From Actinomyces glycerinitolerans (GTDB lineage: Bacteria > Actinomycetota > Actinomycetes > Actinomycetales > Actinomycetaceae), in the NCBI RefSeq assembly GCF_900098745.1, contig NZ_FQTT01000009.1:1-64000 (forward strand): 64,000 nucleotides of DNA, read 5' to 3'. The position numbers and the translations under genes were made by a program. The notes beneath the pieces were generated by a model that was not told where the DNA came from, made no database searches, and saw nothing but the letters and a program-made list of their open reading frames with translations. Below are positions 345 to 36,122 of the stretch, piece after piece. Every line of letters begins with the position of its first letter. The first letter of the stretch is position 1.

Positions 345-371
345 GCTCACGAACCCACACCCACAACCACA

Positions 372-392
372 CCCCGGGGCCCCGGCCCGGGG
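372..392 (+). terminator. GC hairpin after 5S rRNA, possible rrn terminator
   Basis: CCCCGGG (372-378) and CCCGGGG (386-392) form a 7-bp stem with a 7-nt loop, 28 bases after the 5S gene. There is no U tract. The position suits an rrn operon terminator, but termination is inferred from structure only. Confidence 0.4.
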
Positions 393-731
393 GGCACACA
401 CCACACACACCCAGCACAGCCCACACCAGACACCAACGCGGCAAAGCAGCCGCACCAGCCCACAAACCACGAGCCCACACAGGCCGCACACACGGAAATA
501 CGAGTGGGCAGACACCACAGCCAAAGGCCCAGGGGCCGTGCGCGATCACTGTCATCTGCGCTTGATTCCCGGAAACATGATCAGGGCAACACGGCAACGG
601 TGAGGCGGTGCGACCTTCGCAGGCACGCCCGTACTGGCTCGAGCCGCGAACCTCAGCCGGGCACGTACTCACCGAGGGGCCCCTTGGCCGTGTGCTCGGC
701 AACGGGGTACTCGACTGCTACGCCTGTTCGC
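393..731. other. Intergenic region, no recognisable gene
   Basis: A CA-rich stretch (about 393-480) is followed by ordinary high-GC sequence. Open frames on both strands have no recognisable protein content. No tRNA or known small RNA was recognised. Confidence 0.6.
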
Positions 732-825
732 GGTCTACTACGCCACTTGGTCGTCTGTTGAAGGGCTCCGAGGTATACAGCGGACCGTTAACCGGCGTAG
801 TAGACGGTGAAGTGGCGTAACAGAC
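732..825. repeat. 20-nt-unit palindromic array, copy A
   Basis: The array has 20-nt units at 732-751, 786-805 and 806-825 around a 34-nt core at 752-785 that contains GAGGTATACAGC. The units after the core are inverted relative to the one before it. GTCTACTACGC (733-743) pairs perfectly with 795-805, and ACGCCACTT (740-748) pairs with 810-818, so two alternative stems compete. The core closely matches that of copy B at 1409-1442. The family is unknown and no coding potential is seen. Confidence 0.75.
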
Positions 826-1010
826 GCCCCCAGCTCACGGGCGCCAGCCGGCATAGCATGACTTGTGGGTACTAAACCGGCTCTTCCGGTTTGAGGGTGT
901 GGTGCTTCCGGCGTGGTGGCTTCGGTCCGGGTTGCGGTGGTTGTGGTTGGGGTGGTGAGGTCGGTGTCGGGTCGGCGGGGACGTTCTCGGGGGCGGATGA
1001 GGTCGATGTC

Positions 1011-1070
1011 GGGCCGGCGTGGTCGTGCTCGGGCCGGCGTGGTCGTGCTCGGGCCGGCGTGGTCGTGCTC
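1011..1070. repeat. Three exact tandem 20-nt repeats inside element 1
   Basis: The unit GGGCCGGCGTGGTCGTGCTC occurs at 1011-1030, 1031-1050 and 1051-1070 without mismatch. A partial copy of its 3' half lies immediately upstream (1001-1010). The exact identity suggests recent slippage or selection. Confidence 0.9.
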
Positions 1071-1092
1071 GGTAGGTGCTGCTCTGCCGAGA

Positions 1093-1151
1093 ACGTCCTC
1101 GTCATCCCCAAACCCTCCACATGCGGGAGGGTTTGGGGCTTACGAGGACGT
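1093..1151. repeat. Long two-tier hairpin inside element 1
   Basis: CCCCAAACCCTCC (1106-1118) pairs perfectly with 1126-1138 across a 7-nt loop. Outside a 3x3 internal loop, ACGTCCTCGT (1093-1102) pairs perfectly with 1142-1151. The CGAGGACGT word of the outer stem recurs downstream (about 1171-1215) as part of the element's private repeat set. It is roughly central in the first array of the element. Function is unknown; it would fold strongly as RNA from either strand or extrude as a cruciform. Confidence 0.85.
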
Positions 1152-1348
1152 ATTCGACCAGTGTCGGGCGCACGAGGACGTTTTCGGGCCGGCGAGGGCG
1201 TCCTCAGGCCGGTAGGGGCGTCCTCGCCGCCGGCCGGGCGGAGTGCTCGAGGACGCGGGTTGAACCTCCACGGCGCCGGCTCACCACGCCAGAACGCCTG
1301 GCCTGGCTGCACTTGGCTGCCGACAGCTCCGGCGCCCGGAAGCGGGAC

Positions 1349-1465
1349 CGTCTGCAACGCCACTTCGCCGTCTGCAACGCCACTTCGGCGTTAACAACGC
1401 CAGTTAACCGTCTGCTGAAGGCCCCAGAGGTATACAGCAGAGCGTTAAGTAGCGTTGTTAACGCC
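1349..1465. repeat. 20-nt-unit palindromic array, copy B (inside element 1)
   Basis: Direct 20-nt units lie at 1349-1368, 1369-1388 and 1389-1408. Then comes the core at 1409-1442, which shares CTGAAGG and GAGGTATACAGC with copy A, followed by an inverted unit at 1441-1465. GGCGTTAACAACGC (1387-1400) pairs perfectly over 14 bp with 1452-1465, and TCTGCTG (1411-1417) pairs with 1435-1441. The architecture matches copy A at 732-825, although only copy B lies between visible MITE ends. Confidence 0.8.
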
Positions 1466-1591
1466 CAGCCGGCGTACCAAACACCCCACCCCACGTCACC
1501 CCACCCCATGCCATGTCCCAGGACATCGGCAGCACTCCTGCCGCCGCCCCAGACAACCACCACACCCCCAAACCGGAAGAGCCACTAAACC

Positions 1592-1858
1592 GTCACGACT
1601 CAGGTTACGCCCCGGGTAGGGCCCACGGTTGGCCCCCCGGCGTCGGTTTGGACCGCTCCAGCAGGAGGTGCCCGGGGCAGGGCCCGCGGAACGCGGACTC
1701 CGGCGGGCCCTACCGTGCGGCCGAGAGCTCAGCCGCACGTACCACATGGGGCGCCGGGCCTGCCGGCCCGGGAAGTGCCCCACCGCAGTCGCGCGCAGCG
1801 GAATGCCCCGTAGCTCCAACCAGGGGGACAAGACAGGGCTACCCCGTGGACGCCGGCC
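1592..1858. other. Hairpin-rich gap downstream of pmt, possible structured RNA
   Basis: No protein gene is recognised here. Perfect inverted repeats follow in series: GTAGGGCCC (1616-1624) with 1705-1713, CGTGCGGC (1714-1721) with 1732-1739, and CCGGGCC (1755-1761) with 1766-1772. Compared from memory with RNase P, tmRNA, SRP and 6S RNA, none of their conserved cores is seen. It may be a terminator region for pmt, debris of another mobile element, or an unassigned RNA. Confidence 0.4.
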
Positions 1859-3778
1859 CTAGATCCAAGAACTCAGCCACATGTGCCAGTGCCAGAACGT
1901 GTAGGACACGGTCTGTCCGGTCCAAATCGGCCACCACGCCACCGTGAACATCGCAGCGAGCACAATCACGCCGGCCATCAGTGCCAGTCCTTCTCCGCGC
2001 AGGCGCCAATGCGGTACGCCCGTCCAGGCTTCGGGAAGACGGGTGCGCGTTGCACGCATGCCGAAGCCGAAATATGCGGCCACGGCGCCACGTGGATAGG
2101 GGAGCCCCGGCCCAATCCGTCCCTCCGCGATCAGACGCGCCTCCTCACGCTCGGCTGCCGACCCGGGCACGGGCGTGAGCATGCCGGAAACTGCGCCCAG
2201 TGCCAACACCAGCACCAGCACCATGCACGGTTCGAACGCCACCGTGTAGAAGGTGAAGATGGTCCGGTTGGAGTAGATGAACCACGGCAGGTAAAGGCCG
2301 ACGTACCCGATCAGCGGCACCCAAACGCGCCAGTCGCGGCGGCCGATTGCCAGTACCACGATCACGAAGACCAGTGCCAGCACGGCCGCCCACCAGATGG
2401 GTATGTTGCCGATCGAGGTGATGGCCTGGATACAGCGGCCCGAACCACAATCGGCGCCGGCCAGCTCCTCAGAGCCCTTCCAGTACAACGACGTCGGCCG
2501 CCACTGCACCAGCCAGCCGATCGGCTTCGACATGTAGGGATGCTCGGTGTCCAGGCCAACGTGGAAGTTGTACATCGACAGGTGGTACTCGAGCAGGTCG
2601 TTGAGGGAATCCGGTAGCCAGGAGCGCGCCACCGTGCCGGTCTCCGCGCGCTGCGCCGCCGCCCAGCCGCGGTAGTAGGCGCCGTCGTGCAAGAACCACG
2701 AACCCCAGCCGGCCCCCAGATAGACGATGAAGGCCACCGGCACCAGGCGAATGAAATCCCCAACGCCGCGCGCAACGGTCCCCTCGAGGAACCAGGCGCG
2801 CGCCCCGACCCGGCGCAGCGCCAACGTATCCCAGACGACCACAAGAATCCCGATCGCAGCCAGCAGGTAGGCGCCGGACCACTTCACCGAACAGGTCAGC
2901 CCGGCGGCGATGCCCGCCCCAATCAGCCACGGGCGCAGGTGTGCCCGCGGTGCCAGGGGCGCAGGCACCTCCGCAGCGATGGGCACGCCCGCGAAGTCGG
3001 CCGCCAGGCGCGCCCGGGACCATTCCCGGTCGCGCACGACGCAGTAGAGCGCGAGCGTCGCGAACAGGCCGATGAACCCGTCCAACAGTCCGATCCGCGA
3101 CTCGGTGATCCCTACACCATCGATCGCCAGCAATACCCCGGCCAGGCCGGCGAGCAACGGCGAACGGGTCAGCCGCAGCGTGAGCCGCGCCAGCACAATC
3201 ACCGTCAAAACGCCCGCCAACGCCGGCATGACCCGCCAGCCGAAAGAAGAGTCCGCGCCGAAGATCTGCATACCCAGACCGATCAGCCATTTGCCCAGCT
3301 GCGGATGCACCACATAGCTGGGGTCGGTTGTCAGCGCAGAGAAGTCTCCCTGCGCGAACAGCTCATCGGCGCCGTCGCCCCACTTGGACTCGTAGCCGTT
3401 CTGCCACAGTGCGTAGCCGTCCTTGACGTAGTAGATCTCGTCAAACATGAGCTGATGCGGGTGACTCAGGCCAATCAGCCGCGTCAGCGCCGCCACCAGT
3501 CCAGCCAACGCGGTGGCCACCCAGCCGTTGATACGCGTCTGCCGCGGCAGTTCGGTGCCAAGCGGTTCCAGTCCCAGTAGAGACCGCAGCTGGTTCTCGC
3601 TGCGCGGAGTCTCGGTCTCACCGGGCTTACCGGCGTTGGTGTCGGTCTTGGAGGCGCTGTCGGTCTCGACGACGGCAGTCGCGGCAGCTGCCGCGTGCAG
3701 GGAGCCATCGCCGGGAGAGTCTCCTGGAGTAGGGGACGCGTCGGCGCCATCCGGTGAAGCAGCACAGGGTGAAGTCAC
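1859..3778 (-). CDS. pmt: Dolichyl-phosphate-mannose--protein mannosyltransferase (GT39)
   Basis: This polytopic membrane protein of 639 aa belongs to the PMT family, which transfers mannose from polyprenyl-phosphate-mannose to Ser/Thr of exported proteins. After a Ser/Pro/Thr-rich cytoplasmic N-terminus (about 80 residues) comes the first membrane segment. The acidic catalytic motif follows it in [16 protein letters not shown]. Many hydrophobic segments follow, and the protein ends [10 protein letters not shown] as PMT proteins often do. I chose the GTG at 3778 because TAGACT lies 7 nt upstream (leaderless arrangement); longer in-frame extension runs into divergent rsmI. The adjacency to rsmI resembles that in other actinobacteria, from memory. 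Substrates could include the secreted proteins of this region, but nothing here shows it. Confidence 0.93.
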
Positions 3779-3785
3779 GTCTGCG

Positions 3786-3808
3786 AGTCTAAGGCGGCCC
3801 GTCATACT
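3786..3808. promoter_or_regulatory. Back-to-back leaderless promoters for pmt and rsmI
   Basis: On the minus strand TAGACT (3791-3786) lies 7 nt before the pmt GTG. On the plus strand CATACT (3803-3808) lies 6 nt before the rsmI ATG at 3815. Neither gene has room for a Shine-Dalgarno leader if these -10 boxes are used. The two -10 boxes are only 11 bases apart, so polymerase binding in the two directions should be mutually exclusive. Confidence 0.6.
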
Positions 3809-3814
3809 GAGCCC

Positions 3815-4795
3815 ATGAATAACGACATGAGTGATGCCACGCCCGCGGACGACAGCGGCGCGCCGGCGGCCGAGGCCGACCGGACGGCAGAAACACGGCC
3901 GGCGGCCCCGGAGGATGTCGCGCCGCCTGCGCCTTCGGTGGACGCCGCCCCGCGCCCGGGCACGATCACCCTGGCCGCGACCCCGATCGGGAACGTCGCC
4001 GACGCCTCCCCGCGCCTGCGCCGGGCCCTGGAGTGTGCCGACCTCATCGCCGCGGAGGACACCCGCCGCCTGTTCGCCCTGGCCCGCCGTCTGGGGGTGA
4101 GCGTGGGCGGCCGCGTGGTGGCCTTCCATGAGCACAACGAGGCCTCCCGGGCCCCCGAACTGCTTGCGGCCGCCCGTGCGGGCAGCGCCGTCTTGGTTGT
4201 CTCCGACGCCGGCATGCCGGGCATCTCGGACCCCGGCTACCGGCTGGTGGTGGCCGCCGTCGACGCCGACGTCCCGGTCACCGCCGCGCCCGGGCCCTCC
4301 GCCGTGCTTACCGCCCTGGTGCTCTCCGGACTGGCCACCGATCGCTTCACCTTCGAGGGTTTTCTCCCGCGCAAGGCGGGGGAGCGCGTCCGCGCCCTGA
4401 CGGCGTTAGCGGATGAGCCGCGCACCATGGTGTTCCTGGAATCGCCCCGGCGCACCCACGAGACCCTGCGTGCCATGGGCCAGGCCTTCGGCGCGGACCG
4501 CCGTGCCGCACTGTGCCGGGAACTGACGAAGACGCACGAGGAGGTACAGCGCGCAACCCTGGGGGAACTCGCGGACGCCACGGCCGACGGCGTGCTGGGG
4601 GAGGTGGTGCTGGTGGTTGCCGGCGCCCCCGCCCGGGTGGTGGACCTACAGCAGGCTGCCGCCGAGGCGCTGGCCCTGGCGGACTCCGGCATGCGGCTGA
4701 AGGCTGCCGCCGCCGAGGTCGCCCCGCGGGCCGGTGCTCGCCCCAATGAGGTGTATCGGGCGGCGCTTGCCCGGCGCGACGCCGACGACGCCTAA
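3815..4795 (+). CDS. rsmI: 16S rRNA (cytidine(1402)-2'-O)-methyltransferase RsmI
   Basis: RsmI methylates the ribose 2'-O of C1402 in the 16S decoding centre using SAM. The 326-aa product begins with about 48 residues of low-complexity Ala/Pro/Asp sequence. The tetrapyrrole-methylase fold follows: [12 protein letters not shown] (about 49-60), EDTRR, the SAM-binding loop [18 protein letters not shown] (about 129-146), and APGPSA near 160. The family is usually 275-290 aa, so the extra length is the N-terminal extension. The ATG at 3815 has a -10 box 6 nt upstream and no leader. A downstream start near the conserved domain cannot be excluded. Confidence 0.95.
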
Positions 4796-4820
4796 AACGC
4801 CGGCGCCCGGAAGAAGAGGG

Positions 4821-5561
4821 CTAGACGCCCTGGCCGCCGTCGGGCGGGGGCAGCGGCCGGTAGACCACCTGCTGCGGGGCCAGGCCATAACCGACCGTCG
4901 GCGTTGCGGCGGGGGCGGGCTGCGGTGCCGACATCGGTGGTGCCGGAACGACGGTGGCTCCTGCAAGCGGATACAGTCGGCTCATCATGACGCGCGTGCG
5001 ACGACGTCGGCGCGCCACCAGCCAGATCGCGCCGACTACGGTGCTGGTCAGGCCCGCCACGCAGAAGGGGATCGAAGTGACGGCCATGCGCAGGCTACGG
5101 CTCCACTCCGGGGACACGTTGGACTGGTTGATGGTGATCGCGCTTGTCCCGGTGCAGGCGACGTCGTAGGTGCCGGCGTTGGTCGACCGGAAGCCGAGCA
5201 CCTGGGGCGGGTCGCTATTGTCATGATCCAGCGTATAGACATCCAGTGCCGTTCCCGCCGGGTCGAAGACCTTGCAGGCGACGTTGGCGTCGGCGGAGAA
5301 GAAGCCGTATTCGGTGTCCTCAAGCAGGGACAGCGCCGTCGACCGCCCACCCTGGTCGATCGCGACGGCGTCCTCCTCAAGCACACGCGGGGCAATCGCC
5401 ACCGCTGCTGCGAACAGTGCTACCGCCACCAGCAGCGCCGCCACGCCCCCGATGGTGACGACGCGCGGCACCGTCAGTGAGGGCAGGCCGTCCGCGTCCA
5501 CGCCTCGCGGGCGCTGCGGTGGTCCATTGACGCCCGGACCGGGCTGATTCCACACGGCCAT
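4821..5561 (-). CDS. Small bitopic membrane protein, paralogue 1 of 3
   Basis: I do not recognise a named family for this 246-aa protein. One hydrophobic segment lies at about 38-58. An extracytoplasmic stretch contains two cysteines (TEYGFFSADANVACKVF and GTYDVACTG). A second hydrophobic segment lies at about 165-185, followed by an Arg-rich stop-transfer sequence and a Pro/Ala-rich tail of about 55 residues. The order TM, Tyr-Gly motif, Cys, Cys, TM is shared with the next two genes on the same strand, so all three arose by duplication. ATG 5561 follows a purine-rich GAAGTAGAGG. The gene is convergent with rsmI, 25 bases away. Confidence 0.75.
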   Translation of the reverse strand: MAVWNQPGPGVNGPPQRPRGVDADGLPSLTVPRVVTIGGVAALLVAVALFAAAVAIAPRVLEEDAVAIDQGGRSTALSLLEDTEYGFFSADANVACKVFDPAGTALDVYTLDHDNSDPPQVLGFRSTNAGTYDVACTGTSAITINQSNVSPEWSRSLRMAVTSIPFCVAGLTSTVVGAIWLVARRRRRTRVMMSRLYPLAGATVVPAPPMSAPQPAPAATPTVGYGLAPQQVVYRPLPPPDGGQGV

Positions 5562-5680
5562 CGCCTGCACCTCTACTTCCTGCCGGTACTTCCCGCCGGC
5601 GGGCCGCCGCCGACTCCCACGAGATTCAACCGTGACTTTACGTGACTTTACGGGGCGATGCCGTCTTCGTCAGCCGAACC

Positions 5681-6187
5681 TCACAGCCTGGTGCCTGCGG
5701 TTGGATATGCAGCCTGCGTCTGTAGAGCTCGCCTGTTGTGTGAATTGCGTACGACGAGCCAGATGATGCCGCCGATTGTGAGGGGAACACCGACGATGAA
5801 CATGCAGACTGCGGCGAAGACGAGGAAAACGCTGCGTCCAACGTCCTGTGCTCCGATCGCGGGGCCGAAATACACGTCCTCACCGGCGACGGAGGTGGTG
5901 CAGGTGACGGTGTACTCGCCGGAGATGCCTGCCTCAACCGTGGCGAAGAGGAGGTGCCCGTTGACCGTCGTGTTTGACCACGGAGTGGCCAGCGTCGCCT
6001 CGGTGCCATCGGCGGCGGTTACGGAGCACTGTGAGTCCCCATTGCCGTAAAGGCCGTAAGTGACCGTGGAGTCCAACTGCACGCGGGTTGAGCCGTTGGC
6101 GTCAACGGGGCGCGGGTCGTGATCGAACCGGGTCATGTAGCCGGCGAAGGCCACAACGATCACGGCGGCCAACACGCACAGGACCAC
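5681..6187 (-). CDS. Small bitopic membrane protein, paralogue 2 of 3, N-terminus uncertain
   Basis: The 168-aa product has the same plan as its neighbours: TM (about 3-20), TYGLYGNGDSQCSV, GEYTVTCTT, TM (about 118-145). The only start in frame before a stop at 6323-6325 is a GTG at 6187 lying inside the first membrane segment, with no clear ribosome site. Upstream, another frame encodes a Pro/Ala/Gly-rich stretch (GSPYATAPRGAGPNSYAPAA) typical of such N-termini, preceded by a run of nine C (minus strand; plus-strand G at 6302-6310). This suggests one or more frameshifts near 6200-6310, so the gene may be decaying or misread at the homopolymer. Confidence 0.6.
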   Translation of the reverse strand: MVLCVLAAVIVVAFAGYMTRFDHDPRPVDANGSTRVQLDSTVTYGLYGNGDSQCSVTAADGTEATLATPWSNTTVNGHLLFATVEAGISGEYTVTCTTSVAGEDVYFGPAIGAQDVGRSVFLVFAAVCMFIVGVPLTIGGIIWLVVRNSHNRRALQTQAAYPTAGTRL

Positions 6188-6460
6188 CCCAGACAGCAGC
6201 AGAATAAGCGGCCCCTTGTGTCCCTTGGGGCCGGTGCGGCAGGGGCGTAGGAGTTGGGGCCGGCGCCACGGGGCGCGGTCGCATAGGGGGAGCCGGGAGT
6301 CGGGGGGGGGTAGGACAATGGGTTACTCCGGTGCGGTAGAGGGCTGGTGGCGTCGGTTGTCGCGCTATCACGCTCACGATACGTGCCGTGTCGCCCGCAG
6401 GCGGCTTCCGTGAGTGACGGCGAGACGTTGGCGGGAAGCAGATCGACGTTGGTACGCCGA

Positions 6461-7012
6461 CTATTCCCGGATGATTCCCCGGGTGGTTGCGGCGGGGCCG
6501 CGCCGGTTCGATCGGGCGCGCCTATTGTCGATAAAGTGCCAAATGCCCCCGAACGTAGCCAGCGGGAGGCCGACGAGGCCCATGCAGGTAGCGGTGATCG
6601 CTCCCCACCAACCGCAGTCGACGATCCGGAGGTCGGTCAGGCGCCCCACCGATACCTCCTGCTTCTCGTGCCCGGAACACGTGAAGGTGTGATCGCCGGT
6701 CGCTTCGGCCTCGATCACTCCGAGAATCCGATGATCGGCCACTGGCGTCTCCTCCGACGGCGGAAGAACCACGACGCCGTCCCCGTTCGGGCCGGTGACG
6801 GTGCAGTCCACGGTGCTATAACCCCACAGGCCATATGTGGTCGCCGCATCCAGGCTCACGGTGGTCACCCCAGCCGAATCCAGCGCCTGCAGGTCCCTGA
6901 TGGGGCGCGCCATGGGTAGACAGATGGCCAGCCCGGCCAGCGCCACCAGGCACAGGACCACGCCGATGCGCAACGGGACTCGCGGTCTTCCAGACGCAGG
7001 CGGTCGGGGCAT
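6461..7012 (-). CDS. Small bitopic membrane protein, paralogue 3 of 3
   Basis: The 183-aa product is of an unrecognised family. ATG 7012 follows GGAGGAG at good spacing. A hydrophobic segment (about 14-34) precedes an external region with TTYGLWGYSTVDCTV and GDHTFTCSG, matching the TYGLYG...C and YTVTC positions of paralogue 2. A second hydrophobic segment (about 140-160) and a short basic tail follow. The conserved cysteine pair suggests a disulfide-bonded extracellular domain; that is inference. The gene is divergent from metG, 134 bases away. Confidence 0.78.
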   Translation of the reverse strand: MPRPPASGRPRVPLRIGVVLCLVALAGLAICLPMARPIRDLQALDSAGVTTVSLDAATTYGLWGYSTVDCTVTGPNGDGVVVLPPSEETPVADHRILGVIEAEATGDHTFTCSGHEKQEVSVGRLTDLRIVDCGWWGAITATCMGLVGLPLATFGGIWHFIDNRRARSNRRGPAATTRGIIRE

Positions 7013-7134
7013 CGTGATCTCCTCCAAGCTCGATGACGCACACCTGGCGTGCTCGTCGCCGCCACCATAGGGGTGCCGGAGCCGCAAACACAGGGGGAGA
7101 ACAACCCGGGGCCGTACCCGGCCGCGGGAACGGA

Positions 7135-7140
7135 TAGGCT
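7135..7140 (+). promoter_or_regulatory. Leaderless -10 box of metG (TAGGCT)
   Basis: TAGGCT is followed by six bases (GCCCCC) and then the metG ATG at 7147. The same hexamer and spacing precede ksgA at 13335-13340. No Shine-Dalgarno is present. Confidence 0.6.
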
Positions 7141-7146
7141 GCCCCC

Positions 7147-8997
7147 ATGAGCCGTATCCTCTCCGCCGTCGCCTGGCCCTACGCCAACGGTCCCCGCCAC
7201 ATCGGACACGTCGCCGGCTTCGGCGTCCCGTCCGACGTCTTCTCCCGCTACATGCGCATGGCCGGCCACGACGTCCTCATGGTGTCCGGAACCGACGAGC
7301 ACGGCACCCCGATCCTGGTTGCCGCCGACGAGGAGGGAATCAGCCCGCGCGAGTTGGCCGACCGCAACAACCGGCTCATCGTCGAGGACCTGGTGGCGCT
7401 CGGCCTGTCCTACGACCTGTTCACCCGCACCACCGCCGGCAACCACTACCGGGTGGTGCAGGACATGTTCCGCACCGTGCGCGACAACGGCTACATGGTC
7501 GAGCAGGTCACCCGCTCCGCGATCTCCCCCTCCACCGGCCGTACCCTGCCCGACCGCTACATCGAGGGCACCTGCCCGATCTGCGGCGCCGCCGGCGCCC
7601 GCGGCGACCAGTGCGACACCTGCGGCAACCAGCTCGACCCCACCGACCTGATCGACCCCCACTCCCGCATCAACGGGGAGACCCCCGAGTTCGTCGAGTC
7701 CACTCACTGGTTCCTGGACCTGCCCGCCCTGGCCGATGCGCTCGGCGCCTGGCTGGACGAGCGGGAGGCCTCCGGCGCCTGGCGTCCCAACGTCATCCGC
7801 TTCTCCAAGAACATCCTGGCGGAGATCCGCCCGCGCGCCATGACCCGCGACATCGACTGGGGCATCCCCATCCCCGGTTGGGAGGACCAGCCGAACAAGC
7901 GCCTGTACGTGTGGTTCGACGCCGTCATCGGCTACCTGTCCGCCTCCATCGAGTGGGCCCGCCGCAGCGGTGACCCCGAGGCCTGGCGCCAGTGGTGGAA
8001 CGACCCGCAGGCCCTGTCCTACTACTTCATGGGCAAGGACAACATCGTCTTCCACTCCCAGATCTGGCCCGCCGAGCTGCTCGGCTACAACGGCCAGGGC
8101 GAGCGCGGCGGCGAGAGCGGCGACATGGGCGTGCTGAACCTGCCCACCGAGGTCGTCTCCAGCGAGTTCCTGACCATGGAGGGCCGCAAGTTCTCCTCCT
8201 CCCACGGCATCGTCATCTACGTGCGCGACTTCCTGGCCCGCTACCAGGCCGACGCCCTGCGCTACTTCATCTGCGCCGCCGGCCCCGAGACCGCCGACGC
8301 CGACTTCACCTGGGCGGAGTTCGTGCGCCGCACCAACGGCGAGCTCGTGGCCGGCTGGGGCAACCTGGTCAACCGCACCGCCGCCATGATCCACAAGCGC
8401 TTCGGCGCCATCCCCGCCCCGGGCGAGCTGGAGGACGTGGACCGCGCCCTGCTGGACGCCGTCGCCGCCGGCTTCGATACGGTCGGCGACCTGATCCGCC
8501 ACCACCGGCAGAAGGCCGCGCTCGCCGAGGCCATGCGGCTGGTGGGCGAGGCCAACAAGTACATCGCCGACACCCAGCCCTTCAAACTCAAGGGGGAGGA
8601 GGGCAGCCCCGAACACCGGCGGCTGGCCACCGTGCTGCACACCCTCGCTCAGGTGGTGGTCGACCTGAACCTCATGCTCTCCCCGTTCCTGCCGCACGCC
8701 GCCAACGACGTCGATCGCGTCATGGGCGGCGAGGGCACCATCGCCCCCATGCCCCACATTGAGGAGGTGGACGAGCTCGACCCGCAGGTGCTGCCCGATG
8801 CCTTCACCGGCCGCACCGGCTACCCGATCATCACCGGCGACTACAGCGGCGTGCCCACGTGGGAGCGCCACCCCGTGGCGGTCGGTACGCCGATCGCCAA
8901 GCCCAAGCCCGTCTTCGTCAAGCTCGACGAGGCCATCGTGGAGGAGGAGCTGGCCCGCTACGCCGACTCCCAGCCCGACGACGTCACCGGCGCATGA
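7147..8997 (+). CDS. metG: Methionyl-tRNA synthetase
   Basis: This class I synthetase of 616 aa charges tRNA-Met. The HIGH-type signature is in [15 protein letters not shown] (about 10-24). The zinc knuckle has two CxxC pairs in [18 protein letters not shown] (about 143-160). The KMSKS equivalent is GRKFSSSHG (about 344-352), a variant spelling of the loop. A helical anticodon-binding domain follows, and there is no C-terminal tRNA-binding-like domain of the long form. The mRNA is predicted leaderless. The stop overlaps the tatD start as ATGA, an arrangement common in actinobacteria. Confidence 0.97.
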
Positions 8998-9926
8998 GCC
9001 GCAAGCACCGCGACCGCTCCTGGCCGCCCGCCGACGCCGTCGCCCCTCTGGCGGCGCCGGTCACCGACAATCACACCCACCTGCCGGTTCCCGGAGAGGT
9101 TGCCGCCGGGCCCGGCGCCGACGCGCCGCTGGACGCCGCCGAACTGGTTGCCCGGGCAGCCGCGGTTGGAGTGACCGCCCTCATTACCTCCGCCGCGGAG
9201 ACCACCGCCTGGGCGCCGAGCCTCACCCTTGCGCGTGAGCTTCCCGGCGTGCGGGTCGCGCTGGCCATCCACCCCAACGAGGCCGTCGCCCACGCCCGGG
9301 TGCGGGAGATCGGCCCCGACGGCCTGGAGCCCGTGCGCCTGCCCCACCACGACGAGCCCCTGGACGAGGCGGTCAGCCGCTTGGAGGCGCAGGTGCGCGG
9401 TAACCGGGACGTCGTCGTCGCCGTCGGGGAGACCGGCATGGACCTCTTCCGCACCGGTCCGCGCGGCGCCGCCGTCCAGCGTGAGGCCTTCCGCGAACAC
9501 ATCGCCCTGGCCAAGCAGCTCGATCTGCCGCTGCAGATCCACGACCGCGACGCCCACGCCGACTGCATCGAGATTCTGGAAGCCGACGGTGCCCCCGAGC
9601 GGACCGTCTTCCACTGCTTCAGCGGGGGAGCGGCCCTGGCCGAGGCCTGCGCCGAGCACGGCTGGTACGCCTCCGTGGCCGGTCCCATCACCTACCCGGC
9701 CAACGAGGAGCTGCGCTCCGCCGTCGCGGCCGTGCCCGACGAGCTGCTGCTGATTGAGACCGACGCGCCCTACTTGCCGCCGAAGCGCTGGCGCGGCCGC
9801 CCCAACGGCTCCTATCTGATGCCGGACACCGTACGTTTTCTCGCGCAATTGCGCGGATACGACGAGGTGAAAATGGCCGCCGTGCTGGCCCGCAACACCG
9901 CTCAGGCCTACGGCACATGGGTGTGA
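8994..9926 (+). CDS. tatD: TatD family metal-dependent hydrolase / DNase
   Basis: The 310-aa protein has the amidohydrolase TIM-barrel of TatD enzymes, which act as 3'-5' DNA/RNA exonucleases or in D-aminoacyl-tRNA deacylation. Metal-binding motifs appear in order: DNHTHLP near residues 24-30, VGETGMDLF (about 144-152), LQIHDRDAH (about 180-188), HCFSG (about 207-211) and [10 protein letters not shown] (about 257-266). The ATG at 8994 overlaps the metG stop (ATGA), so translation is probably coupled. An Asp-rich insertion around 100-130 is longer than in E. coli TatD. Confidence 0.93.
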
Positions 9927-9963
9927 AATGTGTCAGTTTGTGTTGCTGAGCCACCCGTAGTCG

Positions 9964-9981
9964 GTTAGCGTGATCGGCAGT
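9964..9981 (+). promoter_or_regulatory. Promoter element shared by the two G5-domain genes, copy 1
   Basis: GTTAGCGTGA followed by two variable bases and GGCAGT occurs here, 25 bases before the GTG of the SLT-type gene, and again at 12337-12354 before the Rpf-type gene. TAGCGT within it fits a TANNNT -10 box. The identity of the two upstream segments suggests co-regulation or inheritance from the duplication. Confidence 0.5.
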
Positions 9982-10005
9982 TGTCAACCGTTAGGAAGAA
10001 TCCCC

Positions 10006-10950
10006 GTGGGTCGTCACTCCCAGAGCAGCTCCTTAAGCACAACGCTGGTTGAGCTTGGGGCACTGGCCTCAAAGAGCCTCACCAAAACCTCCGACGCACA
10101 TGGCCGCCGTCGCGCCGACGGCCCCGCGAAGACCTCGATTTCGCCGGCGATGTACCGGGCGGGAGGGGTGGCCGCCACCCTGTCCCTGGCGGTTTCCGGC
10201 GGCGCCTACGCCGCCACCCAGTTCGGTGACTCCGGCGTCGCCCCCCTCACCGAGTCCCAGGCGCGCATGCAGGCCCTCGCCGCCTCCGGCGAGGACACCG
10301 CCGACGCCCTGGTTGTGGGCGGCGACGTGGCCGAAGTGACCGCGGTTTCCGAGGACGAGACCGATGAGTTCGAGCAGGTGGAGCAGGAGACGGATGCTCT
10401 GCCCGAGGGTGAGACCGAGGTGCAGACCGAGGGCGTTGACGGCGTCACTCGGGTGGTCTATCGCGTAACGAGCGTCGACGGCCAGGAGGTCTCCCGCGAG
10501 GTGATCTCCCGCGTGGTCGTCAGCGAGCGGGTCGACGAGGTGGTGCTGGTCGGCACCGGCACGGCTGCAGACACCAGCGGTGAGGACGCCGACACCGAAA
10601 CCGAATCCACCACAACCACGGTGGCGGCTTCCGGTGACGGCACCACCGCTGCCTCCGCCCAGTCCATCGCCCAGTCGATGATGTCCTCCTACGGCTGGGA
10701 CGACTCCCAGTTCACCTGCCTGGTCAGCCTGTGGAACCGCGAGTCCGGCTGGAACTACCAGGCCCAGAACGCCTCTTCCGGCGCCTACGGCATTCCTCAG
10801 GCACTGCCCGGCTCCAAGATGAGCTCCGTGGCCTCCGACTGGGCCACCAACCCCACCACTCAGATCAAGTGGGGCCTGGGCTACATCTCCGGGCGTTACG
10901 GCACCCCCTGCTCCGCCTGGGCCCACTCCGAGTCCACCGGCTGGTACTGA
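10006..10950 (+). CDS. Secreted G5-domain protein with SLT-like C-terminal domain
   Basis: A likely cell-wall hydrolase of 314 aa. Start GTG 10006 is preceded by AGGAAG at good spacing. A long basic N-region leads to a signal-like hydrophobic stretch (GGVAATLSLAVSGGAYA, about 51-67). A G5 domain follows (about 120-180: VEQETDALPEGETEVQTEG, VSREVISRVVVSERVDEVVL), then an acidic Thr-rich linker. The C-terminal about 85 residues (FTCLVSLWNRESGWNYQAQN ... GAYGIPQALPG) resemble lytic-transglycosylase-like domains, with a candidate catalytic Glu in NRESGW. The N-terminal half is nearly identical to the Rpf protein at 12406. Signal cleavage is not certain. Confidence 0.88.
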   Translation: MGRHSQSSSLSTTLVELGALASKSLTKTSDAHGRRRADGPAKTSISPAMYRAGGVAATLSLAVSGGAYAATQFGDSGVAPLTESQARMQALAASGEDTADALVVGGDVAEVTAVSEDETDEFEQVEQETDALPEGETEVQTEGVDGVTRVVYRVTSVDGQEVSREVISRVVVSERVDEVVLVGTGTAADTSGEDADTETESTTTTVAASGDGTTAASAQSIAQSMMSSYGWDDSQFTCLVSLWNRESGWNYQAQNASSGAYGIPQALPGSKMSSVASDWATNPTTQIKWGLGYISGRYGTPCSAWAHSESTGWY

Positions 10951-11000
10951 TCCCCGCCGCACTCGTCACCGCACCGGTCGCAACGGCCGGTCTCGGTGCG

Positions 11001-11513
11001 TTACATCCACCGGCCTCGGCGTGTTAGATGTGCTGGTCCCGGCGAGGACGTCGGCGGGATCGGCTGCTGTAGGGCGGCGCGGCGCGTTAGCGCCGCCCCC
11101 TCGACGGCCGCGACGATGAGCGCCACAACCCATGCGAGCAGGTACGCGAGTACGAGTCCGTAGCCGATGGCTCCTGCGGCGTCGGAGGACATGCCGGCTC
11201 GAGTGAGAATGCCGTCGAACTCCGGCCAGTCGGTAAGTGCCGGTACCAGCGGAGGCCACAGCAGCGCCAGGGCGAGCACCACCAGCGCCGTCCGATTGGT
11301 CCACGGCGGCAGTTCCCGCCATGCATTGCTGTTGGGCGCCGCCGCGACACTGGCCAACAGCAGCTGCAGGAATAGCTGGATGAGCAGCGCGTAGGGGATG
11401 AAGAAGAGTTCCCACCCCACGGCGCCGTCAATCACGGATCCGATTACGGTCCACAACGGCAACAGCCCGCTGCACCACCACAGGTCCTTCACGCGCAACT
11501 GGATCACTCTCAT
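11001..11513 (-). CDS. Hypothetical polytopic membrane protein
   Basis: The 170-aa protein has about four hydrophobic segments (about 14-32, 36-56, 74-92 and 118-140) and a Pro/Arg-rich C-terminal tail. I recognise no family, catalytic motif or close paralogue in the window. It lies alone on the minus strand between the SLT-type gene (convergent) and MITE element 2. The start at 11513 is the first ATG and begins MRVIQLRVKDLWW; no strong ribosome site is seen. Confidence 0.6.
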   Translation of the reverse strand: MRVIQLRVKDLWWCSGLLPLWTVIGSVIDGAVGWELFFIPYALLIQLFLQLLLASVAAAPNSNAWRELPPWTNRTALVVLALALLWPPLVPALTDWPEFDGILTRAGMSSDAAGAIGYGLVLAYLLAWVVALIVAAVEGAALTRRAALQQPIPPTSSPGPAHLTRRGRWM

Positions 11514-11622
11514 ATGGGTAGGTTAGGGGCGGCGTGAAAGACCGGCCATGGGGTGACCTGCCCATGCGCTGCCGCTCAAAACGCCTGGGGGTCGCCACTT
11601 CTACCGATCTCGGCACATAACC

Positions 11623-12180
11623 GGCTCTTCCGGTTTGTGGGTGTGGTGGGTGAGGGTGGGAGCTGTCAGCTGGGGTGCGGGGTGCGGGCCTGGTCGTTGA
11701 TGCCCGCGCCGCCGGGTGCAGGCCGGCCGGGTTGTCTGGTGTGTTTTCCCGGGTGGGATCTGGCGCGTAGGTCGGCGCGGGCCCTGGCGGTTGGTACCTG
11801 TGGTTGACGGTTCGGCACTTAGCACCGGCGATTCGTACCCTCTCGTGGCGGTTCGGCACCTAGAGGTACGTACCGTCCCATAGGAGTACGAATCGTTGAT
11901 CAGAAGGTACGTACTGTCGTCGGAAGTGTCGAATCGTCGACCCGAGAAGGGGGGCCCCGTCAGGCGAGCAGCCGAGTCCTCCCGCCCGGACCGCCGCATT
12001 CGAGAGGGTAGGGCCGGGGCTCGCCGCGTCCGCCGGGACCTGTTGTGGCCTGCCCGGGCTCGCGACGATCAATCGCGCCCGCCCTACCCGTGCCTGCCAG
12101 AGCAGCCCCGCTGGAACGTCCACAACGACCGCCACCAGGCCCTCACTTGTACATCACCACACCCCAAAACGCGAAGAGCC
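11623..12180. mobile_element. MITE with ISL3-like termini and 8-bp target duplication (element 2)
   Basis: The left end GGCTCTTCCGGTTTGTGGG, continuing TGTGGTG, starts at 11623. The imperfect inverted right end (CACCACACCCC, AAAACGCGAAGAGCC) stops at 12180. ACATAACC flanks it at 11615-11622 and 12181-12188, an 8-bp duplication. Inside, about 11800-11950 carries roughly 20-nt spaced words (CGGTTCGGCAC twice, GATTCGTAC, then inverted GTACGAATC and GTGTCGAATCG, and GGTACGTAC twice). The 558-bp element has no transposase frame. It shares only its ends with element 1. Confidence 0.8.
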
Positions 12181-12188
12181 ACATAACC

Positions 12189-12218
12189 GGCTCTTCCGGT
12201 TTGTGGGTGTGGTGGGTG
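12189..12218. mobile_element. Solo MITE left end abutting element 2
   Basis: Directly after the second ACATAACC, the sequence GGCTCTTCCGGTTTGTGGG continues TGTGGTGGGTG, identical to the left end of element 2 over 30 bases. No matching right end occurs before the Rpf gene at 12406. It is a truncated older copy, into whose edge element 2 inserted, or a partial tandem duplication. It lies about 120 bases upstream of the shared promoter element. Confidence 0.75.
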
Positions 12219-12336
12219 TTGCCGGCCTGGTGGGCTGGTTGGCGGCGGTGAGGCCGGCCGGGACAGGTGCGGGTTTGCCCGCTCGCACCGGCGCCCCGAT
12301 CCGTGACTGACGTCATTGTCCGCTGCCGCGCTCTTC

Positions 12337-12354
12337 GTTAGCGTGAATGGCAGT
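12337..12354 (+). promoter_or_regulatory. Promoter element shared by the two G5-domain genes, copy 2
   Basis: GTTAGCGTGA, two variable bases and GGCAGT match 9964-9981. It lies about 50 bases before the Rpf ATG at 12406, so the mRNA should have a short leader. The leader is too short for the large c-di-AMP riboswitch often found upstream of rpf genes. Confidence 0.5.
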
Positions 12355-12405
12355 CGACGTCGAGTTCAAGGATTCGGTGGCGGCCGCCACCGACGAGAGG
12401 ACCCC

Positions 12406-13227
12406 ATGACACCCGTTAAAGATCTGCTTAAACCCGGCATGCTCCGCGCCGGAGGCGTCGCAGCGGCCCTGGCCCTGTCTGTCTCGGGCGGCGCCTACGC
12501 CGCGGTCCAGGCCGCCGCTCCGGGTGGTGACGCCGAGGCGCTCCCCGAAACCGCGGTGGTCGCCTCGGCGGCGAGTGGAGACATCGCCGCCGACGCGGAC
12601 GCCGCCGATGTGCTGGTCGCGGGCGGTGACGCGACCGAGGTCTCCTCGGTATCCGAGGACGAGGTCGATGAGTTCAAGCGGGTGGAGCAGGAGACGGATG
12701 CTCTGCCGGAGGGCGAGACCGAGGTACAGACCGCGGGTGTGAACGGGGTCACCCGAGTGGTCTACCAGGTCACCAGCGTGGACGGCCAGGAGACCTCACG
12801 CGAGGTGATCTCCCGCGTGGTGGTCAGCGAGCGCGTCGACGAGGTGGTGCTGGTCGGCACCGGTTCCACCACCGAGGACACCGCCGAGGCCGCGGACGCC
12901 TCCGCCGCTGCTTCCGACTCCGCCAGTTCCTCTGGTTCCACGGCGTCCAGCTCGAGCAGCTCGACTTCCGGCAGCGCATCGGCCGCCGACGACGCGGTGT
13001 GGGCGGCCCTGGCCCAGTGCGAGTCCGGCGGCAACGCGGCCACCAACACCGGCAACGGCTTCTACGGGCTGTACCAGTTCTCCCTGTCCACTTGGCAGGC
13101 GCTGGGCGGCACCGGCTACCCGCATGAGGCCGACGCCGCCACCCAGACCGCCATGGCCAAGAAGCTCCAGGCCCAGTCCGGCTGGGGCCAATGGCCGCAC
13201 TGCGCCGCGCAGCTCGGCCTGCTCTGA
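12406..13227 (+). CDS. Resuscitation-promoting factor with G5 domain (RpfB-like)
   Basis: This secreted muralytic protein of 273 aa would cleave peptidoglycan glycan strands during growth and resuscitation. A signal peptide occupies about 1-33 (MLRAGGVAAALALSVSGGAYA). A G5 domain lies at about 85-150 (VEQETDALPEGETEVQTAG; VISRVVVSERVDEVVLVGTG). A Ser/Ala-rich linker follows. The Rpf domain at about 195-273 has the catalytic Glu in WAALAQCESGGNAAT, then GFYGLYQFSLSTWQALGG and a second Cys near the end. DUF348 repeats of mycobacterial RpfB are absent. ATG 12406 follows GAGGACCCC. Its N-terminal half is nearly the same as in the SLT-type protein at 10006, and a perfect hairpin follows the stop. 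Confidence 0.94.
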   Translation: MTPVKDLLKPGMLRAGGVAAALALSVSGGAYAAVQAAAPGGDAEALPETAVVASAASGDIAADADAADVLVAGGDATEVSSVSEDEVDEFKRVEQETDALPEGETEVQTAGVNGVTRVVYQVTSVDGQETSREVISRVVVSERVDEVVLVGTGSTTEDTAEAADASAAASDSASSSGSTASSSSSSTSGSASAADDAVWAALAQCESGGNAATNTGNGFYGLYQFSLSTWQALGGTGYPHEADAATQTAMAKKLQAQSGWGQWPHCAAQLGLL

Positions 13228-35742: not shown

Positions 35743-36122
35743 GGATCTTCCGGTTTGCGGGTGTGGAGGCGGGGGTTGGGGCGGCGTCTGGGGTGCGTGG
35801 CGGCTCGCGGTTCGACCGACTGGCCCGCATCCGCTTGGACCGCCCAGCTGTACTTGGACGGCCCAGCTGTACTTGGACCGCCGGGCTCTGCTTGGACCGC
35901 CCCGGACGCACTCTTGAGCGGTCCAACCGCAGAATCGCGGTCCAACTGAAGAGACGCGGTCCGAGTAGGGGAGCGGGAAAGGTGCGGGCGCCGGGACGGG
36001 TGCGGGCGCCGGGCAGAGCCGCAAGCCCCCGGGCGGGCCCAAACCAGCTGTGCTGGTCGCCGTCGAGTTGGACAGTCCCGGGCGGGCCCAAACCAGCTCT
36101 TCCAGCTTCGGGGGTTGTGGTG
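35743..36122. mobile_element. MITE remnant(s): two left ends in the same orientation
   Basis: GGATCTTCCGGTTTGCGGG continuing TGTGGAGG at 35743 matches the MITE left end with few changes. A more diverged left-type end lies at 36095-36122 (AGCTCTTCCAGCTTCGGGG then GTTGTGGTG). No inverted right end and no 8-bp duplication were found, so this is one or two truncated copies. The interior holds 19-nt repeats (35834-35971) and a 20-nt direct repeat, CGGGCGGGCCCAAACCAGCT, at about 36032 and 36080. Confidence 0.6.
35834..35971. repeat. 19-nt-unit array that switches orientation
   Basis: Units beginning CTTGGACCGCC or CTTGGACGGCC start at 35834, 35853, 35872 (exactly 19 nt apart) and 35891. After about 35913 the complementary word appears three times (GCGGTCCAA, GCGGTCCAA, GCGGTCCGA) at similar spacing. 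The layout of forward units, switch, inverted units mirrors the arrays at 732-825 and 1349-1465, with an unrelated unit sequence. Confidence 0.8.

Follow-up and report, generated by a model that had tools for sequence, protein, structure and literature searches.

Miniature elements with ISL3-type ends and phased dyad arrays in rumen Actinomyces

Introduction

Actinobacterial insertion sequences of the ISL3 family, exemplified by IS31831/ISCg1, have terminal GGCTCTTCCGGTTT and generate 8-bp target duplications. Such 8-bp duplications have also been described for another ISL3 transposon (PMC9782665), circular forms of ISL3 are mentioned elsewhere (PMC3812183), and in Microcystis aeruginosa a 187-nt ISL3-type miniature inverted-repeat transposable element (MITE) has GGCTCTTCG ends matching the ISL3 elements of the same genome, is bounded by 8-nt direct repeats and is presumed to be mobilised by an ISL3 transposase (PMC11448079; we refer to the available excerpts of these three sources). 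Here, we analyse 64,000 nucleotides of Actinomyces glycerinitolerans (contig NZ_FQTT01000009.1, positions 1 to 64,000; hereafter “the window”), in which the segments 879–1583 (element 1) and 11623–12180 (element 2) are very probably complete, non-autonomous MITEs of the ISL3 type, moved in trans by the ISL3-family DDE transposase of an autonomous element of ~1448 bp.

The autonomous ISL3 elements that we found in Actinomyces resemble IS31831/ISCg1 in their terminal GGCTCTTCCGGTTT and 8-bp duplications, whereas the MITEs of the window, unlike IS31831/ISCg1, do not encode a transposase. With the Microcystis MITE, as far as the excerpt of its description goes, they share ISL3-matching ends and 8-bp repeats; in contrast to that single short MITE, they belong to a population with many unrelated interiors, carry phased arrays and reside in a genome in which an ISL3 gene was not found. 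As MITEs alone they are ordinary, an ISL3-type MITE having already been described.

The arrays in their interiors have two partial counterparts. Iteron arrays of plasmid origins consist of direct ~20-bp repeats on one helical face, whereas the arrays reported here are dyad-symmetric and lie in tens of chromosomal loci, with no replication gene among the neighbouring open reading frames (ORFs) scanned. The second counterpart is BrickBuilt of Porphyromonas gingivalis, a multicopy, intergenic MITE containing a minisatellite with a 23-nt unit (PMC4596501, excerpt), and thus likewise an intergenic, multicopy MITE with a repeat unit of about two helical turns. According to the same excerpt the BrickBuilt repeats have no spacers, whereas here 9-bp cores alternate with variable spacers of 11–12 bp, are inverted about a dyad and also occur in free-standing copies, so that the arrays are not direct, spacer-less tandem repeats of the BrickBuilt type. 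Our literature search found no account of such MITEs in rumen Actinomyces or of such arrays, nor of an ISL3-type MITE combined with a phased dyad array.

Results

Two complete elements with common ends and unmatched interiors

Element 1 (705 bp) extends from a left terminal inverted repeat (879–906, + strand) to a right one (1554–1583, − strand) and is bounded by two copies of ACTAAACC at 871–878 and 1584–1591. Element 2 (558 bp), with its right terminal inverted repeat at 12153–12180 (− strand), lies between copies of ACATAACC at 11615–11622 and 12181–12188. Re-reading the sequence bore out the inverted ends, the coordinates and the perfect 8-bp direct repeats given in the preliminary description, as well as its claims of a third left end abutting element 2 (12189–12218) and of the lack of a transposase-length gene: among ORFs of at least 80 aa the longest internal one has 170 aa, and none of the six that were scanned exceeded the Pfam cut-off (one sub-threshold hit). 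The elements had been called two complete copies. Both are complete, but they are different elements, which have only their ends in common; past ~30 bp at the ends, the interiors give no BLAST hit to each other, and the two cluster apart.

The third left end belongs to an apparently truncated segment (12189–12293, + strand) with no right end within reach in the window, beyond which alignment resumes at 12294 (genome G012) and at 12302 (G058); here and below, G000 is the draft assembly of the window's own genome, other G-numbers are the Actinomyces genomes compared and L-numbers the stretches examined. A further left end (GGATCTTCCGGTTTG...) is solitary, with no partner found nearby (35743–35771, + strand).

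The ends are dispersed through the window's genome and a few relatives

Many dispersed ends, the further genomic copies by which the MITE claim was to be judged, were found in G000 and in relatives. With up to three mismatches, the end motif GGCTCTTCCGGTTTG occurs at eight places in the window against 1.70 expected, a number that none of 100 shuffles reached, and with up to two mismatches it occurs at 82 places in G000, compared with 17 for a reversed control pattern. A sequence model built from 47 ends (R1) gave 97 matches in G000 at E ≤ 1 and 73 at E ≤ 0.01, the 47 ends themselves included, and more than 120 ends in each of two relatives. Among the 29 of the 49 genus genomes searched, seven are rich in ends (32–132 R1 matches), while the next has 14; the seven are the same genomes that contain the arrays described below. 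An exact search of named genomes, from which own-genome records may have been left out, returned the end only from Actinomyces (A. succiniciruminis, A. ruminis and A. ruminicola; five stretches), and a search of viral contigs with the end pattern gave zero matches.

Autonomous ISL3 elements with the same ends occur in relatives

The ISL3 transposase gene expected alongside such ends was not found in the G000 draft, but autonomous elements with these ends are present in relatives. Four of the six relatives rich in ends contain matches to PF01610 (DDE_Tnp_ISL3), fragments counted: nine in G051, two in G053, one in G058 and 22 in G005. In G058, an intact ISL3 element of 1448 bp with the duplication GCATACAT has a right end with which both ends of element 1 agree, the left one at 26/26 positions (its first 26 bp) and the right one at 27/28. 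Elements of 1447–1448 bp with the same ends and perfect 8-bp duplications occur in G058, G053 and G005, the integrity of their genes being judged from the open frames reported and from the 464-aa ORF of one stretch (L128). Ten full-length PF01610 matches of equal score are present in G005, and the five of these elements that were read are 1448 bp long, 100% identical and all flanked by 8/8 duplications. Taken together, the ends, the length of the duplication and the autonomous partner assign the MITEs to the ISL3 type.

An empty site and intact duplications point to movement

For element 1, the empty site sought in relatives exists. In G058, the closest relative (94% identical to the window over 1,911 bp near element 1), the sequences corresponding to window positions 345–879 and 1584 onwards are adjacent and joined by a single ACTGAACC, with flanks ~90% identical. 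Flank identity was also evaluated for all facing end pairs. Of 27 such pairs in G000, eight have 8/8 identical flanking positions, three 7/8 and five 6/8, whereas among 702 pairs with swapped flanks none reached 8/8 and 1.1% reached 7/8; in relatives, 16 of 38 pairs show 8/8 (nine MITEs and seven autonomous elements) and five 7/8, against 0 of 1,406 control pairs at 8/8. Two relatives contain similar MITE copies at differing sites with their duplications intact. Five MITEs of G005 (four of 718 bp and one of 738 bp) are 95.5–98.8% identical, and the 718-bp copies have perfect duplications at four different targets, while the 738-bp copy has no perfect duplication. The interiors of the 27 G000 pairs range from 285 to 1,078 bp, and many are unrelated. 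It is thus the autonomous elements in relatives, the empty site of element 1 and the duplication statistics that uphold the proposal of a MITE with ISL3-like ends and 8-bp duplications.

Several observations weigh against this assignment. PF01610 has no match in G000, and G012 and G056 likewise carry the ends without a PF01610 match. For element 2 no clean empty site was found, its flanks being diverged or deleted: G058 lacks the region 10953–12301, and G012 keeps the remnant of a related MITE there. Moreover, flank identity is 5/8 in five and at most 3/8 in six of the 27 G000 pairs, and at most 6/8 in 17 of the 38 pairs in relatives, from which it follows that some pairings are composite, rearranged or wrong.

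Insertion targets and abutting ends

A preferred target ACNNAACC, with the palindrome AACCGG at the junction, had been suggested from the two duplications of the window. It did not survive comparison with the 24 perfect duplications (16 in relatives, seven of them of autonomous elements, and eight in G000), as it fits only those two. The target is instead an A/T-rich core between G/C: in the 24 duplications, the share of A/T is 92–100% at positions 3–5, 62% at position 6 and 4–33% at positions 1, 2, 7 and 8.

Right and left ends at most 15 bp apart were found at six distinct places in the stretches examined, the gap being exactly 5 bp at four and 8 bp at two of them, one of the latter at 12181–12188, where the right copy of ACATAACC doubles as the gap before the next left end. 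The 8-bp gap is explained by a shared duplication. Ends separated by 5 bp (L043, L046, L108 and L114) are possible traces of circle junctions, and they resemble the 5-bp spacing at the circle junction of IS1411.

Phased dyad arrays inside and outside the elements

The most unusual part of the elements, the phased arrays of their interiors, had not been noticed in the preliminary description. Element 2 contains an A-type dyad array (11786–11938) of eight 9-bp cores similar to GACGGTTCG (up to two mismatches), of which four on each side face inward (11786, 11806, 11827 and 11847 on the + strand; 11869, 11889, 11910 and 11930 on the − strand), with spacings of 20-21-20-[22]-20-21-20. The core centres lie ~11, 31, 52 and 72 bp to either side of the dyad and are separated by variable spacers of 11–12 bp. 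A scan of stretches from G000 and the relatives yielded 58 arrays, many of which are similar MITE copies, 17 being left after those more than 90% identical were dropped. The centre spacing is 22 in all 39 arrays with both arms paired, although 15–45 was allowed. Going outward on either side, the next three spacings read 20, 21 and 20, no rank having more than one exception, and any further units follow at 20 or 21.

The arrays are restricted to few genomes. A two-core pattern was found in seven of 49 Actinomyces genomes (control 0), and a search of 213 genomes of the family with a slightly narrower version added one hit, in a single additional genome (control 0). An array model (R2) gave 35–86 matches in each of the seven genomes, one weak match in G003 and none in the 41 others; as the dyad matches on both strands, loci number about half of these counts, and up to 76 candidates were scored per genome. 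In viral contigs, the two-core pattern matched twelve stretches, all of which lack the dyad geometry; two of the twelve (L190 and L200) contain dense short repeats of another kind. In the four stretches with Actinomyces ISL3 elements that were searched, the sole array lies in a neighbouring MITE.

Arrays occur both as MITE cargo and free-standing. Among the stretches examined, 28 loci of G000, including element 2, have an array scoring above 65 bits, 15 of them with an R1 end (E ≤ 0.1) within 1 kb and 13 without; the MITE-borne share is biased upward, since MITE ends were among the grounds on which the stretches were selected. Decayed candidate ends are present at three of the 13 loci (L163, L164 and L171), and only L171 also has a 7/8 duplication. 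One free-standing array (L168) is found at the same place in G058, G012 and G051, hence in four species, with 92% of core positions invariant compared with 84% of spacer, 76% of intergenic flank and 90% of coding positions. Among related MITEs of G051 (L106, L108, L104 and L117), from a subfamily 77.5–95.1% identical with gaps counted, the number of units differs by whole units.

No common regulator was found beside the free-standing arrays among the neighbouring ORFs scanned. The array neighbours that can be named are mixed, comprising FolD, glycerol-3-phosphate dehydrogenase, UDPGP, AMIN, exo/endonuclease-phosphatase and ROK as well as solute-binding, AhpC/TSA and ketoacyl synthase proteins, one TetR and one Phd/YefM antitoxin. 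The TetR gene adjoins the array of L176. Two contig ends, L176 (775–1196) and L177 (705–1126), are 93% identical over 423 bp, a segment that takes in part of an array, indicating that arrays sit near assembly breaks. In L201, two very similar arrays in direct orientation (~1600–1752 and 3094–3227; G000 contig C7, 509918 and 511413) lie 1.5 kb apart on either side of a gene that has no Pfam match, and G058, G012, G051 and G053 likewise have a second array at roughly this distance.

Further array types and neighbouring features

Other MITEs contain ~20-bp arrays of other types, built on different cores. B-type arrays form 21 clusters with a spacing of 20, four of them with one step of 19, and D-type arrays form six clusters, four with a centre spacing of 17; the D-type cluster at window position 1021 probably belongs to the direct repeats located there. 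Element 1 belongs to a subfamily with B/C-type repeats: it has 20-bp direct repeats of the GGGCCGGCGTGGTCGTGCTC type (988–1071, + strand) and a B-type array (1350–1482, + strand) with GTCTGCAACGCC-like cores at 1350, 1370 and 1390, whose imperfect inverted arms (1370–1417 and 1435–1482) are 77% complementary. A strong hairpin (CCCCAAACCCTCC...GGAGGGTTTGGGG) lies in the same element at 1088–1156, and similar ones are readable in L113 and L124. Outside element 1, a B-like repeat array (712–830) is 71% identical to positions 1369–1487; the region around it (345–879) aligns to G058 and positions 718–819 align to G051.

At the start of the contig, a 5S rRNA gene (222–343) precedes the B-like array and element 1, which follow just downstream. 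Element 2 is flanked by two related G5-domain proteins (9970–10950 and 12316–13227), the second of which has a transglycosylase-like domain. G012 has part of the segment 10953–12301, which comprises a small gene and element 2; by alignment, the segment is missing from G058 and G051.

Discussion

We infer that the MITEs were mobilised in trans and that their source element was lost or is absent from the draft assembly. An ISL3-family DDE transposase made by the ~1448-bp autonomous element would bind the ~26-bp MITE ends in trans and would insert the element at an A/T-rich core bordered by G/C, with duplication of 8 bp; subsequently, the source element would have disappeared from the strain or be missing from its draft. 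As nothing but the ends has to be common, MITEs whose interiors are unrelated can coexist. The missing ISL3 gene of G000 may reflect either loss or a gap in the assembly, and it bears on present activity rather than on origin. The usual origin of MITEs, simple internal deletion of an autonomous ISL3 element, is a weak and improbable explanation for the elements of the window. Two of 53 interiors (L042 and L134, with the terminal 30 bp trimmed) do match the G058 element over the 32 bp that come next in its right subterminal region. Both window elements, however, match the four autonomous elements compared over the terminal 14–28 bp only; of the four ends of these elements, three resemble the right autonomous end GTGTGGTG more closely than the left one GTGTAGTA, the exception being the right end of element 2, which is ambiguous; and five other interiors (L040, L059, L110, L111 and L118) hold sequence resembling ends of insertion sequences, suggesting composite or nested elements rather than deletions.

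As to the arrays, we give roughly an even chance to their being a DNA platform on which a putative protein binds cooperatively and which owes part of its spread to carriage by MITEs, a reading drawn from the lack of covariation between the arms and the rarity of indels. The 136 array pairs differ by 35.1 substitutions but only 0.118 indels per pair, whereas the controls from two MITE subfamilies have one indel per 7.6 or 15.6 substitutions; the control sequence was the first 250 bp, ahead of the array, in six G051 elements, and the full length of five elements in the other subfamily. The spacing therefore seems to be under constraint, in keeping with a protein bound along one helix face. Weighing on the other side are the detection rule of 19–22-bp spacing, which itself lowers the indel count, and the derivation of the conservation figures from a single locus (L168). 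Were the arrays to act as RNA, as a long transcribed hairpin with arms pairing core to core, their inversion about the centre and the standard pairs possible in 91.5% of core cells would be expected. Yet arm similarity is 0.572 within an array and 0.575 between arrays (permutation p 0.60, 13 distinct arrays), shuffling the partners gives equally good pairing (the observed value was attained in 369 of 500 shuffles), the predicted consensus fold joins partners other than those of the hairpin and has an unfavourable covariation term of +0.35, and in ten stretches searched no Rfam family reached its gathering score inside an array. The absence of covariation in consensus fold, pair counting and permutation largely refutes the hairpin and leaves it very improbable.

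Neutral minisatellites, generated by slippage and template switching and riding along by chance, are an unlikely though still sizeable alternative, for which a tandem repeat within a MITE of Porphyromonas sets a precedent in the excerpted account (PMC4596501) and which would account for the varying number of the unit TGACGGTTCGGCACTTCGCC among related G051 MITEs. Nevertheless, the 20-21-20-[22]-20-21-20 geometry stays fixed with very few indels despite a mean p-distance of 0.31, and L168, the free-standing array that four species retain at the same location, has more invariant positions in its cores and spacers than its intergenic flanks have. Common descent from one ancestor without selection could also produce a shared geometry, and a single sequence model does find arrays throughout, which are probably homologous. 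But at 35 substitutions the MITE rates observed elsewhere predict 2–5 indels per array pair, far above the number seen, and we consider this explanation of the geometry rather improbable.

Beyond the binding platform itself, we tentatively envisage that rumen Actinomyces may possess a chromosome-wide network of symmetric eight-site platforms for a putative, clade-specific polymerising DNA-binding protein with a role in regulation, chromosome organisation or defence, multiplied and reshuffled by ISL3-type MITEs, the B, C and D arrays possibly being sister networks with other cores. What distinguishes these genomes is that many interiors unrelated to one another move with a single set of ~26-bp ends, and that a highly regular, clade-restricted array of motifs resembling protein sites occurs both as cargo and free-standing. 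The arrays offer a direct route to a putative DNA-binding system, and a transposon may here have spread binding sites through a bacterial genome.

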